A DNA stretch of 64,000 nucleotides from Scatophagus argus (Eukaryota; Chordata; Actinopteri; Scatophagidae), in NCBI RefSeq assembly GCF_020382885.2, contig NC_058496.1, positions 7,370,501 through 7,434,500 of the forward strand, in the 5' to 3' direction. Both the position numbers and the translations under genes were made by a program. The notes under the pieces are model-generated. The model was not told where the DNA came from and made no database searches. It worked only from the letters and a program-made list of their open reading frames with translations. Positions within the stretch are counted from its first letter, which is position 1. Each line of letters begins with the position of its first letter. Below are positions 3,227 through 63,949 of this stretch, piece after piece.

Positions 3227-3773
3227 CTCTGCATAAATCATAGAAACAAAAATACCAAGACGGTTAAAGTAACGTAAAAAATTCAAATGACAACCGAGAT
3301 AATTAAATGCGAATGAAAGCCACCAGCGGTAGCCAAAAGTTCGTTAAGAAATCTAACGTTAGCTATAATACATTGAGATTTTTTTCTTTCGGCTACACTA
3401 ACCTCATATCCAGAATTCTTTGTTTATTTTTAGTCGAAATGAAATGGAAATTGTATCTTACCTGGAAATGATGTCAACAACAATGATCTTAACTTTCTAA
3501 ACGATATAGCATATCGATGTAGTATATCGTTTAACAAGCTAAGCTCATATTTAGTCTTTTCAACAGATTTACTACAAACAACATCATCTGAAACAGCAGA
3601 TGGTAGCTAGCTAGCAACACAAGTACTATTCGTAAACATCTCTAACCAACTAGCTACATTGCTAGTTCTGCCCCTGAGGAAAAAACACAAACGTTAAGCT
3701 AGTATATACTAGCTTGTTAGCTAATGCAAACCGCTCGTTTTGTCCGAAAAACTTAGGAGGAAGTGTTTCTTAC

Positions 3774-4633: not shown

Positions 4634-6490
4634 ATGTCGGACACCGGGGAGGAGTGGCAGGTGGCCGGGAGAAGAAAGGGTACAGCGCGGAAATCAAAAA
4701 CACTTCAGGTGTCCTCAAATGCAGCATGCTGCCAAGAGCAGCTGGACATCGGGAAAACTGTTAAACGAATTAGAGACACGGTGTAAGAAGTCTAAGTCCA
4801 GTTAAGCAGCATAGTCCTAGAATAGCAGTAAAAATTCTTGTACACGAACTCAGAATGATACAATAACGCTGCGTATCCTCCTCTGTAGGTCTGAGCTAAG
4901 ATGCGAGGAGTTTTGGCAGGAGTGGAAAGGTGAGTCACCTGGAGAAGTTAGCACCACATATTTTTCCTGGCTGTGGAACTATTTTTCTTACAGCTCAGTG
5001 AACCTTTGAAATCCCTGTTTTCAGAACAGCTGCTGGGTGCAGGATCAGCAGCTCTCTCAAAACCTCCAGAGAAAGGGGGCATTGAGGACCCCACCACCGA
5101 TGAGCTGGGGAGGAGCGGAGACGGCAGATCATGCCAGCAGCTGGAGTGTGTGTGTTATGGCCTCGGCCCCTTTTCTTCCTGCGTCTCAGCTCGCTACCAG
5201 CTTGCCATGTTGCTTCTGCTGCTGGATGCCGGACAGGTTAGAGGATGTGTTTATCTAATGAGAAAACAAACATTCGACACGAGACCCTGTTCATTATAAA
5301 TTCTGCCTCACTGCTCCTCCTCCCTCCAGATTCCCCTGAAGGACTGCTCCGTGTATGACCCTGCTTTCTCCTCTGGAGAGAGGGATGTTTTGAGAGAACT
5401 TGGTGTGACTGTACTCACAGAAAACGAGGTCAGTTGTTGACAGTTGTGTTTTATTTTGAAAAATGAAAAACCTCTGGGAGACAGTGCAGAGAACATGTTG
5501 ATAATGCCAGTGTTGAATGTTGACAGTTGTGTTTTATTTTGAAAAGTGAAAAACCTCTGGGAGACAGTGCAGAGAACATGTTGATAACGCCAGTGTTGAA
5601 TGAGTCAGCCGTGTCAATTAAAATTACAAATGCTTAACAGCTCTGTCAAGACCTCAACAAGTTTTTTTTTAATCAAACCGAAAAATGCTTACGTTTTTTT
5701 ATGTAAATACTCAGAGTTAATGTTGGGAGGTATCTGAGCTGCAAGTGTGGGCGTTTTCGTGAAAGTTTCCAGTGTTATGGGATTAAGAGCTTGTAGGAAA
5801 CTCTTTGCAACCAAGATTTAAGACTCAGCTGCTAAAATGTTCCTAAGCATGAAAAAAAGTGCTTTATTAAAATGTTTGCTTGGTGGTAAATTTTCAAATC
5901 TCATATGTCCAAGTGTCTTTTTAGCATGTGAATGTAAATAATAAATTAACATAAAACATTTGAAAAGTAGTTGATTTTCATAGCTTACTGGCCGTCTGTC
6001 GCACTGTACTGTGCAGGAGGGGAAACGTCTGGCGACCAGGCCCACGCTCTTTTACTTGATGCATTGTGGGAAAGCCCTGTACAACAACCTTCTGTGGAAG
6101 AACTGGAGTGCACAGTGTCTTCCTCTGATGATAATCATTGGAAACAGCTTCATTGGCATGAGAGAAAGGTTTGTACAAGACATGAATGAGGCAGCTAACG
6201 GTTAAGAAATTGGAAGTTAGTTAACATCTCCTGTCTGTCGTCCCAACAGGACAATCGACAGGGAGTTCAAGCGCGATTACAGCTACATTACACAAGCCGT
6301 GTCCGTGTGTGAGGAGAGACAGCTGCCTTGTCCATCCCGACTGATCGACGTCTTCAGTGACACAGCAGTCATCACCTTTCCTACCGGCAGCCTTAACAGA
6401 CTCCCACAGTCCACCTGGGTGGATCCACCCGAACCACAGTACCAACACTGCGCTGATTTAGAGATTATTCAGAGGAAAATCCAGAGCTGA
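4634..6490 (+). CDS. srrd: SRRD, SRR1-domain-containing protein
   Basis: Six coding exons: 4634-4782, 4889-4929, 5025-5236, 5330-5428, 6017-6168 and 6250-6490. They encode 297 residues and end at TGA 6488-6490; the phases close throughout. SRR1-like motifs follow human SRRD closely: [20 protein letters not shown] (near residue 115), [36 protein letters not shown] and [10 protein letters not shown], with [12 protein letters not shown] at the C-terminus. SRR1 proteins are linked to circadian input in plants and to heme and growth regulation in animals; the biochemical reaction is not settled. Exon 1 ends at GT followed by GTAAGA. Using the GT two bases earlier would put a stop in frame, so the downstream donor is required. 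The third exon uses the TTTTCAG acceptor at 5024, because the earlier CAG at 4991-4993 gives a stop. Confidence 0.93.
5436..5601 (+). repeat. Two-copy tandem duplication, 83-bp unit, in an SRRD intron
   Basis: Copies 5436-5518 and 5519-5601 are nearly identical, each starting near TTGACAGTTGTG and ending near GCCAGTGTTGAA. They differ at only a few bases, which suggests a recent duplication. The first copy begins a few bases after the SRRD exon 4 donor at 5429. Confidence 0.9.
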
Positions 6491-20559: not shown

Positions 20560-23500
20560 ATGTCAGACTGTCCTGGTGAAGAGGGGGGTCTAACTCAGGC
20601 CGCCCCAAACGTCAACACCCAAGACCTGTTTGACAACCCCACTCAGACTGCGGTAACAGTGAACACACCTGAGGATCAGGTGAGACTGCCTGTGTGTGTT
20701 TTTTTTTTTGGTTTTTTTTTTGTACGAGTGTAATAATGTTGTTTGTCAGAATCTCTCCTGTCGTGCTGACCTCCATAATTGAGGTTAGGATTTAGGTTTG
20801 GTTAGACTTTGCAGAGGTGATGGATTAGGATTAGGTTTGTGTTTATGTTTATGTAAGGGGAAACATACATTGATGGTGAACAGACTTCCAGTCTTCTCAT
20901 TTCTCATTTATCAGTAAAGTAAAATAAAGTTATTTATATAAAGTTATTTCGCTCCTGAACTTGACTGAGCTGTGACTGTTGTTCTTTCATACAGCAAACC
21001 ATGAGATCTTGCACAATTTCAAGGCCCTGCCAGCACTGAAATACTTTGTCACATCAGTAGTGTTATAAATAGAATTCATTCCTCCCAAAGGATTATGAAA
21101 TTGAAAAAGTGCAAGTGTTACTGTAGTAATGAAATGCAGTTCTAATCATATGTTGTATTGTGGGGCTCCCATAAAGGCTTTATGAAACCATTCACTGCCC
21201 AGTAAATGTTATTAACAAATCCAAATGTAAACAGAAACTGTTTGTGCGCCTAGTATAGTACAGTAGGGCAAAGTGGCAATGGTGGGCTTGTTGAGGGGGA
21301 ATGTGTGTAGTGGGTGAACAGTGTGCATAAGGTATGCACATGTGACATACTGTCCCTCTGCAAGGTATGCACATGTGATATGAGACAACAAAACCGGTAT
21401 GATGTCCGAGGCTAGTGTCAGTGTGTGTCTGTCTGTCAATGATAAACTGGAAGCATATGTAAATGAACTGAGTATTATGAATCATTTAAGGTACTTTGCT
21501 AAAGAAACTTTGACTGTTTTCATGTTGCATAGTGTTACCAGATGTAGAAACAGGAAGGTATTACTTGCAAGGTGATCAGCCAGATTTTATTCCTAGGAAG
21601 GGCGTTCCATTCACACGTCAGTTAATTCTCAATCTTATGTTAAATCTGTACACCTGCTGTATGCACATGGCGCTGCAAATCAGATCCCCGATTTGGCAGC
21701 TGTGTGTACTGTATGTGTTTGTTTGTTGTTGTGCCAAGCAGTGGCAGGCTCTCCCTCTCAGCACTCCGAAACAGGAACAGCAGAGTGCCGAAGTATTACT
21801 GGCAGCATTGTTTCTGAATGCAAGATATTCAGTGGAAAAAGACTGTCCACACGCTGTAGCTGTGGAAAGAATAGGAGACAAGAGGCAGCTTGTAGGGGAG
21901 TAAAGAAAACAGGGTTTTGTGTGCCTGATCCTTTCCAGACTGTCCATTACTTTGTCTGATATTCACAGTTTCCTTGATAGAAGCTTATTGGAAGAGCACA
22001 GTCGTAGCTCAGACTTATATTTATATAAGTCTGAGCTACGACTATATATTACTGGCTGATCACCTTGCAAGTAATACCTGAAAACTGAAAACTACAGATC
22101 TGGCCTGATGCAAAGAGGGAAACGTATCTAACGCTGATGCCATCATTTTTCTAAAGGTGTCGTCTGTGGTGGATGAGGCTTCTCCTTCTTCCACGTCGTC
22201 CTTTGAGATACTTGACATGGAGTCAGTCCCAGCTCCTTATCAAGAAGTGCAGCCTCATTGGTTTTTCTGTCGACGAGCTGAGGACAACACCTCCTGGCTT
22301 CCTTTCAGCAGAGAGGACTCTGACAAGCTAGAGAATGCCTGCAACAGTGGTAAGCATGTATTTATACTTGACATGTACATTATGCACTGCAAATAGTTGA
22401 GTACATAGAGTATAGAGTACAGCTGTAAGTAATTTCCAAACCATTCGTTGCTTAGAATCTAGTTTAAGGATATGGTTTTATAAATCCTGTTTGTGTCTGC
22501 TCACACGTGTCTGTCTTTACTGTGCAGTAGGAGAAAAGGAGGAGAAGGTGGTGGTAGCTGTGGACGGAGAGCGTTATGATGTACATGTCAGGGAGAGGAA
22601 ACGCTATGCTGTGTACTGGGACCAAGCTCCCACTGAAGTCCGCCGCTGTACCTGGTTCTATAAAGGAGATAAAGACACCAGATTCATGCCTTACCCTGAG
22701 GATTTCAGCATACGTCTAGAGGTAGTCTGGCAATGAGCCATCACACTGCTCATTCCTACAGCGTCTCACTTTATCCTCTTCCTAACTATACCTGTTTCTC
22801 TTTTCATATCGGTTGGTTCCTTGCCCTCCAATTTTTCAGGACGCTTATATGGTTGCAGTAACCTTGGGTGAATGGAAGACGAAACTGGAATTTCCCACTG
22901 GAGAGACTGTCATCTTACACAATCCCAAAGTAAAGCCTGCTGTTAAAATATGACCATGCAGTCTGTAATTAAATACATGACAAAGCCACATCAAGGCTTT
23001 TCTGAGTATATAATTTTTTTGTTAGGTACATTGCCTCTTTCTACTAAGCCTCTTCTCCTTTATTTTCATCCTCCTCTCTTCAGCTGATAATGCAGTATCA
23101 GCCCATAGGGTTGCAAGATGAGTGGGTGTCCTCCCCTTCGGAGCAGACCCGGCCTCGAACAGTCAAAAGAGGAGTGGACAGCATCTCTGTAGAAATACCT
23201 GATGGTATGTGTGTGGATGTACCAGTAAGGCATAAACTGGGGTATAAGCCCATTTCACAAAGTATTACCTACAGTTAACACCGCTCACACAGTCGGACTC
23301 ATATTTCTCTGTGTTCCCAGGTGAACCAGAAAAAGTGGACCACCTTGTCTTTATGGTCCATGGCATTGGTCCGGCATGTGACTTGCGCTTCAGATCCATC
23401 ATACAGTGTGGTAAGTGTGACTGTGAATATGGTGAAATACAGAACACATACGTGTGTGTGTGTGTTTTGTATGACTCCTTCATTTGGGCAGCCGTGGCTG

Positions 23501-26500
23501 GAGGTTGGAGAAGCGGCTTGTGATCGGAGGGTCGCCGGTTCGATTCCCCTACCGGACGGGCAGGAAAAATTTGGGTGTGGTGGAGTGATTGATGTGAAAA
23601 ATGCCCCCCCCCCCCACTCCATTAGCCGGCTGATGTGCCCTCGGTTCTCTGATCCTGTTTGACCTGCTGACTAACCAGAGAACTGATTCAGAAGCCAGGA
23701 AGGGGGTATAATTACGTTGAGCAAGTCACTTAACCCCCAGTTTGCTCCCCGGGTGCTTGATAGTGGCAGCCCACTGCTCCTGTATGTTTCAGTTGCATAA
23801 TTTGCTCGGTGTTGTACGTGTGTTCAACTAAGGATGGGTTAAATGCAGAAGACAAACTGAGTGTGTGTATGTAAAAATGTATATACTGCCAATAAAGCGA
23901 TTGCTAATTCTTAATTCTTCTTAATTTCTGTCTTACTCCAGTAAATGACTTCAGGAGTGCTTCCCTGTCCCTGCTGGCCTCTCATTATAAGCGCGCTCAG
24001 CAAGATGGCAAGGTGGGTAGAGTGGAGTTCCTCCCAGTCAACTGGCACAGTGCTCTACATGGGGATGCCACTGGAGTAGATGAGTAAGTATGATAACAGA
24101 TAACAAGATAACAAACAATAACAAGATTTCTATGTTGTGCAACACTTGCTATGTCTCCAAAAAATTCAGTAAATTGTGAAACACTCTCCTCCCACCCTTT
24201 TATTTTCTCCCTCATTGCCCACTTTCCAGAGACATCCAGAGAATAACCCTGCCCAGCATCAGCAGGCTGAGACATTTCACCAATGACACTCTGCTGGACC
24301 TGTTCTTCTATAACAGCCCCACCTACTGCCAGACCATAGTGGACACAGTCGCCTCAGAGATCAACAGGCTTCATGCCCTCTTCACACAGAGACACCCAGA
24401 GTTCAACGGGGCAGTTTCAGTTGTGGGCCACAGCCTGGGTTAGACATGCACAAATAGAGAAACTTTGGTCAAACTGATGATGTTACAATGCTACTGCTTT
24501 CATTCACAACACAGCTACACACATTTTCCCTGTCTCAGGCTTGAGGTAACAAGTTGGCAGCTCTGATTTCCTTGAATTTTGATCCCTGCTCCACTTCACA
24601 CCAGGCACCAAGTAGGAAATGTTCCAGAGCATTCCAGGGATAGACTACACATGTGAAAGGGTTTTTTGTCTCTCATACCTTAGGTTCGCTGATCCTGTTT
24701 GACCTGCTGACCAATCAGAGGACTGATTCAGAAGCCAGGAAGGGGGTATAGTTACATTTTCAGCAAAAGTTGACATCAGTGTACTGATGAAAAATGTTTC
24801 ACGTATCTCTGCATAAGGATCCATCTCATTCTGTCCTTCATTCCACTTAAGGTGCCTTCTGATGAACCCATTCATGTGACCTGTGACACTCTAGAGCAGA
24901 CTCTGACTAGACTGGAGCTACAGCAGTACCTGGATACACTACAGGCAGAAAACCTAGACTTAGAATCACTGGTAATATACACACACACACAAACAACTCA
25001 CGAATGCAAACGCAATTCCAATTGTAATGTATAGTCACAAACCTGTGACTCTTCCGTTTTAGGCTCTTTGCCAAGACTGTGATCTCAAAGATTTAGGAAT
25101 TCCTCTTGGACCTCGGAAGAAGATCCTGAATTACGTCAGGAGGAAATGGCTTCCAGAGGTCAGACACAGTCTGAAATTGTACTAACTTTTCTTGAGTTGG
25201 AACTTATGACCATTACAACCCCTTTATGTTTATATGTTTCTTCGATCTGAACTTAATCTAGATGAAGTTTAACTAGATGGTTTTAATGCTTGGTATTAAT
25301 ATACCTTCAGCGTTCATATCAAGGCCACATACCTTTAACAAACCTTTATTTGCAAAAAAAAAACAACCAAAAAAATACATGACCACAAATAACTTTTTAT
25401 ATTTTTAATCTAAATAGTACTGTAAGACAGGAGCAGTACGACTGGCACCAGGGCTGCAAGCGCCACCTTCAGTGACCAGTGATCACGATGGTAACCAGCC
25501 TTCAGGACAGACGATGCAGCAGTCCCAATTCCACAGGGCGCAGTCTGTCACCAGTGCTGTAGACTACGAATACTTTGACATGGGCATCGGACAGGTACCG
25601 CACTCGGACACAGACATGATGACTTGCTTGCTTGGGAGTACCAGTAGATAAAAGCTTCGATGCATCACCTTCCTGCTTCTCTCCTCCCCCGCTTGTCTGG
25701 ACAGACCAATGGAGGCATAGCCAAGGGACAGGTGTGTCTCACATGGTGTCCCCATTGCTCTCACACTTTGTCCTCTGTTATCTTTGGTCTCATTGTGTCT
25801 GGAGTTTCTCTTCATAGACATTCTGATCTGATCAGAGAAAAATCCTGGCAACTGTGTAATAGTGGCTGTGTTATGAGCAATGGGGTTTCCTACATTTTGC
25901 TGTGATTGTGGCCACCATCTTTGTCCCACTGAGTCACATAACCAAAAACCACACTCAGCATCTGTGCTCATCTTGTGTTGCATAAATGATCAGTTCCCTG
26001 GTCCCCCGCTGTTCCGTGCTCCCTGACTGTTGTCTTGATGTCATAAAATGTAGTTTTAATGTTCCCAATACCATTGTTTTTCTCTCTATCCTGTCTGAAT
26101 AGCTGTGTTATCTCAGAAAAAAAAAAACTGTCTGAATCTGTATTTAAATCATTAGAGTTTCCAACACATTTAATGACACAAATGTTGCTCACCCCAATTT
26201 CTCTCCACAGGTATCCATTGATTACCCACAGCTGGCATTCCACCCTCAAACGTTTTTTGCTTTTGGCTCTCCTATTGGAATGTTCCTGACTGTTCGTGGA
26301 CTCAAGCGCATTGATCCAAACTACACCTTTCCAACCTGCAAGAGCTTTTACAACATCTACCACCCAGTGAGTAATTGCCGATTTGCTCTGCTTACATTCA
26401 GCTCTCGGGCCCCAAAAAGGGATAACATCCACTTTTAGTTTTTACTGCTACTGTTTGACTTTTATCCATTTGTACTCTGAGAAGCATTAAGAAGGCAGTT

Positions 26501-29500
26501 CTGAATGTTTCCAAAATTTGCCTTTGAATGGTTAGAGTCATGTAATGATAGATTTACCAGCAGCACAGAATCAACTCAATAACACTCAAGAACACCGGTG
26601 GCAGTTTCACTAAATACACAGTAACCCATCGGCCTAATGTTACTTTTGCCAATTATAAACACACCCATGTGCTAAAAACAACATTCAGTAGAACATAACA
26701 AATAGGACACATTGGTGACATTCATCTCTTCCTTTTTATTTATGTGTAGTATGACCCTGTGGCTTATCGGATAGAGCCCATGATTGTGTCAGAGGTGGAT
26801 CTGGAGCCCATGCTGATCCCTCACCATAAAGGCCGCAAGAGGATGCACCTGGGTATGGCAGTCTGCCTCTTTCTACATGTCTTTGTAGACCAATAATGTA
26901 TTATGGGCTTTTGTTTCATAGGCTTAATGATAATCTCTGCTTCTCTCTGTGTAATAGAACTAAAGGACAGCTTGACTCGTATGAGCATGGACTTGAAGAA
27001 CAATGTTTTGGGATCACTGCGGACGGCGTGGCAGTCCTTCGCCAGATTGCCAGTCGCTGCACTGCCCTCAGTGGAGGAAGGAGAAACTACAATAGAGAGA
27101 AACCTTCAAGAGGCACAGGGTAGAAAAGGCACTTCTATTTACCTTTGTGTATTTGTGAATGTTTTTTATGTGTGTGCGTGTGTGTGAGTGCCCACAAGAG
27201 CGTGTCTAACCCAGTCTCTTCATACTCCTCTCACCCTTCTCTGCATGCTGCCACCCTCCCCGTCCTCCCTTTCCCTTTTGTGCTTTATCTGGTGGTTGCC
27301 CCTGCTTCCCACACTCCTTCCCACATTGCCTTGAACCTCAGCCTCAGCAGCAGCCACTGCTTCTGCTAAGAGGGAAGAGAAAAGTGCTGATTTTTGGACT
27401 AAAATTCTGGAGTGGCCCAGGGCCCTTTATAAGCATTACTTCCCAGGTAAGCCAGGTTAGTCACTTGGCTAACATAAACGAGAAAATGGAAAAATGAACT
27501 CTTTCTATCTGGTTTTCTCTGTAAACTCTCCTGATTCGCTGAGCTTGTGAGCCCATATAGGCTGTCTTTTATTCTACTTGTTTCATTTAAGTGCACTGGT
27601 TTGAATTTGGAGAATAAACATAACAAAGCAAAATCTAATACAGTCATTACCTTTTTTTAATGGTTACCTTGCTGCTCTGCCTGCAGAGTTAATATGTATA
27701 TATATATGTATATATATATATATATAATAACTGATGATATTCACTTGCTATGGTTTACTTTGGCATGTCAGCTCTATGAAGAGCAGTTTTTATGTAATGT
27801 CTGTCGTTTCTGCCACAGGCTCTTGCTACTCTTCTGCTCCTCCTTCCATTGACTATGCTCCCACTGTTGTACTTCTTATCTTCAACTCAACATTTAATTT
27901 ACTGGCCCCTCTTTGAGGCCCTTCTCTCCCTCCCTCCCTCTCCTGCTGTCAGTTCTAAATGACTGGATTTACTCACTGCTTCAGTGATTGTTAACATAGA
28001 AACCACTTTTGTAAGTGGCCCATGAAACACTCTGGTATGTGCTTAGCAAACAGGACAAGTTAAATAGCCGTGATCACGCTTGTTTTTTTTAACAAGAGTA
28101 ATTGGCTGAACCTGAGCCAGCGGGCCATGTCATTCATCGGTAGCAGGTCACCTACAAAAGCTGCATGCAGGCACACGTCCTGCCCTTTTCTGTAACAGCT
28201 CAAGTATTTCGTCTTTCGATTCATTAAATAGGTCAAATAAAAATCAGCTGCTCTTAGGACAGACTGTACAATTAAATAACACAATAACTTTGTGTCTACT
28301 TTTCACTCTTTCTGTTAAAGACAAATTTTCATTTACAGTCCTCATTTGTTCTGTCAAGTATAATTGTGCAAGATTCCAAACACGAGAGGCTTTAGGATAT
28401 AATATAATTTATTTTATTTTGAGAGTAAGATTTTTATCTCTTAATGTCAGAATTCATAGCCAGCAAATGCAGAGGTAGATTAGACATTAAAATGTATGAG
28501 AAGCTGGCAGCGAGCACTTCCATCAGGGTTCATCACCAGCAGAGCGTTAAGTCTTTATGGAGATTCTTAAGACAACAAGAATTCATAACATACCATCAGT
28601 CATCACAAAACTGTCCCGCCTTACTGATATTTGCTCAACATCTATCTTGTGTGAGTGCACGGACATTTATCGGGGTCAAAGGCAAAAAGTTGATAAAGAG
28701 GGCTGTTTTCAAATGACCAATAGCCAATTCTCTGAAAGCTTGTAAGATAAGTACACCCTCCATCTCATATTTCAGTCTAATCAAAATCAGCACAAATTGT
28801 TCAACTTTACTTTACTTATAACATCATTGTCTGAAATATGCTTGTCAGGAAGAGATAATTGCTTAGATGTGATGGTTCTGATAGTGATGGATGCCGACCG
28901 AATAGCAAATCAAATTCGACCGATGTAATTTTCGGTCAATGACTCACCCCAGAGGTGAGTCATTGACCGACTGCTGTGACTCACCTCCGGGGTGAGTCAC
29001 TGACTCTGGGAATACTGGAAGTAATGTGAGCTCCAGTCACCTGCTGCACACTCTCTTCTTTCCTGTCTTTTATCTGATTTGTTCATGTCAAAGTATGAGC
29101 CAAAACAAATACTTGGTGGTGGTTACTATCGTGTTTTTGTTGTCTGCCTGTACATCCTCATCTTTTTATCTTTTTACTTTATTTTTACCTGTGTCCCCGA
29201 AGGTGTTTGTGAGGAGGCACAGTCCTCAGTGTCAGCAGAGCAGACAGAGCACCCTGAGATTAAAGTGGGGATGTTGAATGGAGGGCGAAGGATCGACTTT
29301 GTGCTTCAGGAAAAACCCATTGAAAGCTTCAACGAATATATGTTTGCCATCCAGTCTCATCTGTGTTACTGGTGAGTCATGCATACCCGAGGGGGCTCAT
29401 TTGTATTTCATTTTGCTGATCTTTTCTCTTTGTTGTACTGCATTTTAGTGCCCTGATTTTGATCTGTGCATGAAATACTTTCCCTTCCCTGTCTGTCTAT

Positions 29501-40542: not shown

Positions 40543-43500
40543 AGTCTGGTAGGGCACAGTGTGTCCTTATTGAGGGACAAAGGATGCAGGTGGCCTTGTA
40601 GGACTTCACTTCCTCTTCTCTCCCTTCCTCTTCCTTTAACATAAAAGCAGTTTGTTTATTTGGAGCTGCTTAGTGCTGTGAGATCTATTGTTGTTATGTC
40701 ACTTGAAGAAAACAGAAGATTGATATTGGAAAGCCAGTGCTTATTTGTTACAATGATATTTACGCTTCACATCCAGGGGCCTTAATCATTGCCATCCAGT
40801 ATACACGTTATTTAGTTGCTGTTTCTAGCAGATATATGTAGATATTTAGTCTGACCAGCACCTTTTTCCGTGGCTCTCTGTTATCAGAGGCAGCTGCTCG
40901 AGAAGCTTTCGTATAGCTTTAAACCCCGCAGTGTGATTTGTTTTTATCACATGCTCCAGATCACTTCATAGGAACAGTTTTTTGTTTTATGGATCATATC
41001 AGTTTCAGCACATTTTCGTACACGTTCGTTTACATTTAGTTCAAGTCAACTCTGACTTCGCTCTCTCTTGGCCTCTTTTTCTCTGTGTCTTTACCTTTTT
41101 TGTGCATGATGTTTTTTTTTAAGGTTTTCTTTTCTCTTTCTCTTCACAGTTCAGACTCTGAGGGGACCTTTGAGACTCCAGAGGCAGAGTCTCCAGGTGT
41201 TGTGAAGCTCTTGGGCCAGGTGGACAACTCCGACCAGACAGGTGAGATGGCTCAGCTGTTTGCTGATCAGGTGTTCTTACACTGCTCAAAGCACGTCACA
41301 CCTGAATGCTGACAGTGGATTTTACTAAGTTCAAACTGTATTTTTTTTATTTAATGTTTAGACTTGAAAAATTTATCATCAGGTTGAAAATCAATCCAAA
41401 AAGGGTCCGACGGAGTCTGTAATCACACAGACCCCGTCGGACCCTTTTTGGTTACGTGACAGTGCCCTGAAGTACACCCGTACACCTGTCACTGCAGCAA
41501 GCTGGGGTTTTTTCTCTGAGTAAGGTTTCAGTAAAGCTCTGATGCTTCAGTAGTGTATCAACATTAGTATTAAAATGATAATAATGAATAAAAACTGCCT
41601 GATACTTTGGTGGCATAGGTGTGAAAAGTGAAAACTTTCAACTATTAAAGATCAGGGAGTGAAGTCAGACAGCAACACCTGGAAGTATTAATACTCCATG
41701 AATGGCTTTTTTTTCTTTTTTTTACCATGACACTAATGATATCATTGGTCCTTTTTTCCCCTTGACACCATTACTTCTACAAATGTGATAAACATCAAAA
41801 GCTTGGAAATCTCATCAGCCTTCGTTTCATTCTTTCATTGTAAGAAAGCTTGAACTGATTTGAACTGAACTGTGCCAGATGAACGGTGCAGTAAAGCAAT
41901 CTTGCAGATTTTGCAGACATACATTAAAGGGTCAGTTCATGCAAAGTACAGACGAACATTTTCAGCAGCTAATTTAGCTTGTTTTTTGTTTTGTTTTTTT
42001 CCCAGATTTTGAGATATTACAATCAGGGCTCAGATCATTTTTCTTTTGTTTTTGTTTTTCAGACGAATGCAGCATGATCATTATACAAATGCTGTTATTC
42101 TGTGTGGAGCATTGTGTTGCTTACTGTGTTGACCACAATCTCAACTTGCTTTCCTCTGATGGTCACACAGATCTTGGATCAGCTTTTTGTCATGTGTACA
42201 GATAGAGTGTATGAAGAGTCATTAGAGTTAACAGTTAAAGAGCTTCCTCCTATTTAGCGCAGACATGCACATTGGGTGATAAATGGGCCGTAGATGAATC
42301 TGATCTGTTTGAAGCTGCTTAAGAGGCCCTCTGCTGTCCAGTCCACATCCCCCCTCCTCACCCCTCCCACTGCCCTGCTTTCACCCACACACACCCAGTA
42401 GATTATCTGGAGGGCATCTTCTGTGCTGGAACAAATGCTATTATCTCTGTGATATTTGCAAACTCTGTTTCTCCCTCCCCATGTGCTTTCATCAAAATGA
42501 TTGATTTTCACACGCACTGTGGGATCAGGATGAAATTTGTCTGCATGTTTTGAATGTCTCAGCTAGTTGAAATTGGACACGTTTTGATCACAACACATGA
42601 GGCGCTGTACTGGATGATAAACAGAGAGGTGAAAGTATTATTAAATCTATTTTGCAGACAATAACGGTCTCCTTTTTATGCTGAAACAGTCACATGCTCT
42701 GTACAAAATCTGGGTTAGTTTCATAAATAAAAGATCAACTGTGTGGAGAAACTGATATTCTGGTTCCCTATAATTATACTCCCAACAGCTTGCGGGGAGT
42801 TACTGTTCTGTTCATAGGAGCAACCATAGGCCATAATCCAACTGTGTGTACTGTTGAAATAGGACATAGCTGAAACCTTAGAAAGCAATTTTGTCTACCT
42901 GTTTATCTCCCATTGTTTTTCTGTCTTACTTCCTTTTTTGTCTCCTTTTCCTCTTTTTCGTCTATTTGTGAAACTGTAATAAAGCCTGATGTTGTCTTTG
43001 TTGCTAGGCCGCATGGTGGTGTGTACTCTGCTTGACTGGGTGTGGTTCCTCTACATCTGTTCCCTGTCTCCGAAGGGTGTGTGTGTGTGTGTGTGTGTGT
43101 GGCTGAAAGTACCGAGATTTTGAGCAGAAGCTTACATAAACTTGCATCACTTGAATAAATGTGATGTAATAAGTCACACATTAGCTGTCAGTCACGACAA
43201 ACGATGTGAGAAGCTGTTACCCACCCAAGGTGAAACCACAGTGATTTCATTCATGTTGTGTGCATATTGAGAGGAAGTACAGGAGAATACAGGAGAGGTT
43301 TTTTACGGTTTTATTATTCCATGTGGTTGAGTTTTACAGTGTGTGTGTGTGTAAGTGTGTGTGGGGGTATTTTTCAGTAACAGAGAGTCATGTGTTTCAG
43401 CAGCAGTGTGACTCAACAGAGACCAGCCTGCTGCTTTGGTCGTTAGCTGGCTGTTAACGGGATGTGTGAGGACACAGGATGTGAAGGGCTCTGAGAGGAA

Positions 43501-60348: not shown

Positions 60349-63949
<3,601 letters not shown>

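Follow-up and report, generated by a model that had tools for sequence, protein, structure and literature searches.

A SINE in an intron of DDHD2 is split by a 76-nt copy of an exon lying farther downstream in the same gene, and we regard this copy as a local templated insertion, that is, a break-repair or template-switch patch (rough probability 0.78). The copy is real, and we read it as an ordinary but well-preserved event of this type. A templated patch is favoured because donor and target are separated by 1 kb and point the same way, both flanks of the SINE are complete, intron sequence is included in the copy, and reading the sequence against the SINE alignments revealed neither a target-site duplication of at least 5 bp nor poly(A) at the insert ends. 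All positions refer to the window, the 64,000-nt stretch of DNA that was analysed, and the features are collected in Table 1.

Table 1. Features of the DDHD2 region that bear on the insertion, in window coordinates.
Feature	Position	Strand	Basis or remark
DDHD2 exon preceding the SINE-bearing intron, with a phase 1 end	23321-23410	+	boundaries by reading
SINE, 5′ part, up to GTGCCC	23486-23640	+	alignment with other SINE copies
C12 tract of the SINE (G12 on the opposite strand), 25 nt 5′ of the insertion point	23604-23615	+	read from sequence
Candidate acceptor CATTAG, belonging to the SINE	23620-23625	+	kept in 33/33 fetched copies
Inserted copy: 62-nt DDHD2 exon (23644-23705) flanked by 3 acceptor-side nt (TCG; source TAG) and about 11 nt of donor intron	23641-23716	+	sequence comparison
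Candidate donor GTATAA, brought in together with the exon (GTATAG in the source)	23706-23711	+	each 4/9 consensus positions
SINE, 3′ part, beginning at TTGAGC; carries GATAGTGGCAG of the older subfamily (also L011-L014 and L051); approximate 3′ limit	23717-23903	+	alignment with other SINE copies
DDHD2 exon downstream of the SINE-bearing intron	23942-24083	+	boundaries by reading
Source segment: acceptor TAG, exon 24684-24745 and beginning of donor intron	24681-24756	+	sequence comparison

Sequence comparison identified 23641-23716 (+) as a diverged second copy of 24681-24756, with 69 of the 76 positions of the insert proper identical. Self-comparison within the window placed the match at 23643-23718 versus 24683-24758 (76 nt, 92% identity, E 2e-27). 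The two segments lie on the same strand with their starts 1,040 nt apart, and the donor, whose exon encodes the residues directly after a lipase-type GHSLG, is intact. Four of the 62 exonic positions differ, each at codon position 3 and each synonymous; of the remaining three differences, one affects the acceptor, where the copy has CG and the source AG, and the other two lie in the roughly 11 nt of donor intron that was carried along. The first-pass annotation had described an exon copy within a SINE of the preceding intron, differing from its source at synonymous third positions only, and both statements hold, the match extending over 76 nt with SINE flanks on both sides. Its length of 73 bases covers the well-aligned part alone; the full insert has 76 nt, with one further mismatch on the acceptor side.

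The pair is unique. A genome search with the 76-mer returned two matches from two candidates, the insert itself and the source exon (93%, query 3-75). Within a 264-kb background, consisting of the window and 20 sampled 10-kb loci and compared with itself under a low-complexity filter, 11 pairs were recovered in total, and copy and source alone are dispersed, in direct orientation and at least 85% identical; the rest comprised a tandem duplication and palindromes, along with two inverted pairs and a direct pair of 67% identity. Elsewhere in the window, an 85-nt tandem duplication at 5435-5602 is near-perfect (98%), palindromic or hairpin-like segments of 39-71 nt occur at 3483-3548, 22000-22043, 28932-29004 and 41396-41451, and a long CT-rich repetitive tract at 60996-61975 (GA-rich on the other strand) gives long spurious ORFs in several frames.

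The host gene encodes a SAM domain and a DDHD domain (DDHD, E 1.7e-59), and we take it to be DDHD2 rather than the paralogue SEC23IP. Sixteen matches were obtained in a protein search of the assembly, seven in the host gene and the others in clearly diverged paralogues; one of these, DDHD2-like and perhaps SEC23IP, lies at C10:17819568-17821925 (L044, L047 and L050) and shares 58-70% protein identity. This paralogue was rejected as the source on account of that divergence and of the 76-mer having no DNA match there, and the DNA search with the 76-mer and the protein search together found no second DDHD2 locus in the present assembly.

The insert divides the SINE exactly between GTGCCC and TTGAGC, and no SINE bases are apparently lost on either side. 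All 33 fetched SINE loci, which are best matches and not a random sample, have an uninterrupted 28-nt junction at this point with 0-2 mismatches. Among the best 40 of 2,160 candidates, window included, both flanks of the insert, adjoining one another, are matched by 36 of the other 39 SINE copies, and one flank only by the remaining three; when the SINE without its insert served as query, 40 of 41 matches ran through the junction and the 41st was a 97-nt partial (best 40 of 3,653 candidates). These first-pass candidate numbers of the two genome searches mark the family as multicopy, and BLAST at E 1e-3 found no further copy of it inside the window. With the junctions unbroken and the 76-mer unique, a SINE carrying the insert elsewhere in the genome is ruled out among the best matches. 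The element had been called a tRNA-SINE. The SINE part of this name stands; its putative assignment to the tRNA-derived class rests on the B-box-like motif GGTTCGATTCC, ARAGORN having reported no tRNA in the window. The fetched copies fall into two subfamilies in the 3′ half, one with GATAGTGGCAG (L011-L014 and L051) and the other with GATGCTG (other fetched copies). A chimeric SINE with the insert at the seam of the two subfamilies was considered and discarded, as additional copies put the window element in the older GATAGTGGCAG subfamily, whose 5′ half is conserved.

We propose that the SINE landed first in the DDHD2 intron and that a break or a stalled fork then arose inside it, perhaps aided by the nearby C12/G12 tract, a possible obstacle to replication. 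Repair would have inserted about 76 nt templated by the exon some 1 kb downstream, the orientation and the SINE bases being kept. We infer the break, as well as the enzyme, which would act by microhomology-type template switching (Pol theta end joining or an MMBIR-like route), and the template, for which unspliced pre-mRNA would be as suitable as DNA. Since the copy contains intron, it does not derive from spliced mRNA, which rules out spliced RNA or a retrocopy as its source. The right junction permits a TT overlap. At the left junction there is no clean microhomology: CCTT occurs nearby in both partners, but the product reads TCG and not TTAG, and this TCG may reflect an added base pair or a later change. 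On its left side the copied segment (23641-23643, corresponding to 24681-24683) starts no more than 3 nt from the source exon's 3′ splice site; this may be chance, or it may point to an RNA template. Against a templated patch stand this left junction, the unexplained closeness of the left end to the splice site, the nearer templates and small deletions usual with Pol theta, and an excess of silent and intronic differences.

That excess emerges when the differences are set against the age of the SINE. Roughly 12 substitutions are private to the element among some 320 sites (3.7%); a machine count gave 16/322, five of which (23792-23797) belong to one misaligned stretch and were scored as one substitution, and another SINE alignment gave 18/326 raw private differences. 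These substitutions set an upper bound on the age of the copy, and the simulations used 11-18 changes. This clock predicts no more than about 1.6-2.4 nonsynonymous changes in the copy, and none at all occurred in 0.11-0.23 of the simulations at full SINE age and in 0.39-0.52 with ages drawn uniformly below it. Without selection on the copy, in a model in which one lineage (the exon) is purified and the other (the copy) is free, four out of four exonic differences are silent with P 0.026-0.077 across several mutation models (0.057 at kappa 3), and with P 0.025-0.039 when conditioned on at least four exonic differences. Silent and intronic differences number six, versus 1.3-3.8 expected from the SINE clock (P 0.013-0.19), and the joint P of this excess and of no nonsynonymous change is 0.003-0.015, a post hoc value from small numbers. 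On the favoured reading, the exonic differences are exclusively silent because one of the two lineages is a purified exon and few changes accrued; as the clock is young, zero nonsynonymous changes is unremarkable and constraint is not required. The earlier expectation of several non-third-position changes in an unconstrained copy was overstated, since the four changes are split over two lineages, the exon lineage mostly fixing silent ones, and zero nonsynonymous changes arose in 11-52% of simulations. The argument that selection keeps the copy is weak, and the copy is most likely inert intronic sequence. The excess over the SINE clock leaves room for error-prone copying or for a diverged template.

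A diverged but functional DDHD2 template, either a later-lost duplicate or an introgressed haplotype, would have brought the silent and intronic differences along at arrival. An excess of such differences without nonsynonymous ones (six in about 33 silent and intronic sites, above the clock prediction, and none in about 42 nonsynonymous site equivalents) is the pattern that it would leave. However, the numbers are small, a silent and intronic difference of about 18% is far above allelic variation, and a single DDHD2 locus is found today, both DNA matches and seven of the 16 protein matches lying in the host gene and the rest in clearly diverged paralogues, so we consider this origin distinctly unlikely. 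A jump during retrotransposition, from SINE reverse transcription to local DDHD2 pre-mRNA and back, would fit the orientation common to SINE, insert and gene, as jumping between RNAs requires, and chimeric retrocopies formed through template jumps are reported (PMC2104539). Two jumps would be needed here, the second returning to the very next SINE base, and the other fetched copies (33/33) have nothing at the junction; such a jump is less likely than a templated patch and, in our estimate, very improbable. Gene conversion needs about 200 bp of homology between donor and target. Here the homology stops after 76 nt at 91% identity, too short for this requirement, and refreshment of the copy by conversion, one of the options raised in the first-pass annotation, is accordingly unlikely. 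An assembly artefact is hardly credible: a false duplication would be near-exact and would scarcely leave 7 of 76 bases different, and the source contig spans 27.7 Mb.

Selection could also be keeping the copy, as a poison exon or a splicing decoy: the acceptor ending at 23625 and the donor at 23706 would delimit a stop-containing exon of 80 nt whose inclusion would reduce DDHD2 output. The geometry had been predicted correctly: for the candidate exon 23626-23705, joining G at 23410 to CC GGC TGA gives an immediate in-frame stop upon inclusion (TGA, 23631-23633). The candidate acceptor is pyrimidine-rich at 13 of 14 positions, compared with 11 of 14 in the source acceptor, a YTNAY branch-like A (TTGAT) lies at 23592, 33 nt upstream of it, and the donor arrived with the copy, whose exonic differences are silent only. 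Nevertheless, the copy has CG in place of the exon's own acceptor, and CATTAG is found throughout the SINE copies fetched (33/33), so the acceptor was not made by the insertion. The candidate donor is weak, at 4 of 9 consensus positions, a score equal to that of the working source exon's donor. Moreover, an exon that begins with a stop gives no reason to preserve codons, and the silent pattern has P 0.03-0.08 even without selection. Judged from the sequence, a poison exon appears possible but unsupported, and its maintenance by selection would be quite improbable. The broader proposal that the copy may be either a regulated poison exon under selection, built from a SINE acceptor and a borrowed exon and donor, or the molecular fossil of a vanished, diverged functional DDHD2 haplotype, seems unlikely to us.

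Inserts made by Pol theta are usually shorter than this, with the template nearer the break and small deletions alongside; the present insert is longer and its template farther away than usual. SINE exonization and poison exons offer a likeness in that the SINE gives an acceptor-like CATTAG and the copy a donor, and a difference in that the candidate donor is weak and the case is known from sequence. Like Pol theta-mediated end joining (PMC2895639; PMC4654259), the event left a templated insert at a presumed break, plausibly beside a G-tract. In C. elegans, Pol theta repair at G-tract barriers can leave templated inserts, usually with deletions (PMC4654259); the SINE, by contrast, has no deletion. 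Insertions by MMBIR or template switching (PMC8421209) share the local template, the direct orientation and the return to the original strand, but microhomology is limited here to TT at one end, and the event is deduced from sequence. Human class 2 templated sequence insertions (TSIPs) have a reported size of 73-414 bp and are argued to be RNA-derived (PMC5110952). Like them, the 76-nt insert is a short patch within this size range whose donor is intact elsewhere and which has neither target-site duplication nor poly(A); unlike them, its donor is not distant, lying 1,040 nt away in the same gene, and its left junction has no clean microhomology (PMC5110952). The insert works like a class 2 TSIP and is not classed as one, its donor being local. 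Among the papers listed by the literature searches none described the DDHD2 insertion, which is no proof of absence.

For short exon copies in general, a record of only silent differences is weak evidence of function unless both lineages and the age of the host element are counted. On our reading, the DDHD2 insert itself cleanly preserves the trace of a short local templated insertion in a vertebrate germline: donor, recipient site and direction can all be read from the sequence, and the host SINE provides an independent upper bound on the age of the insertion.
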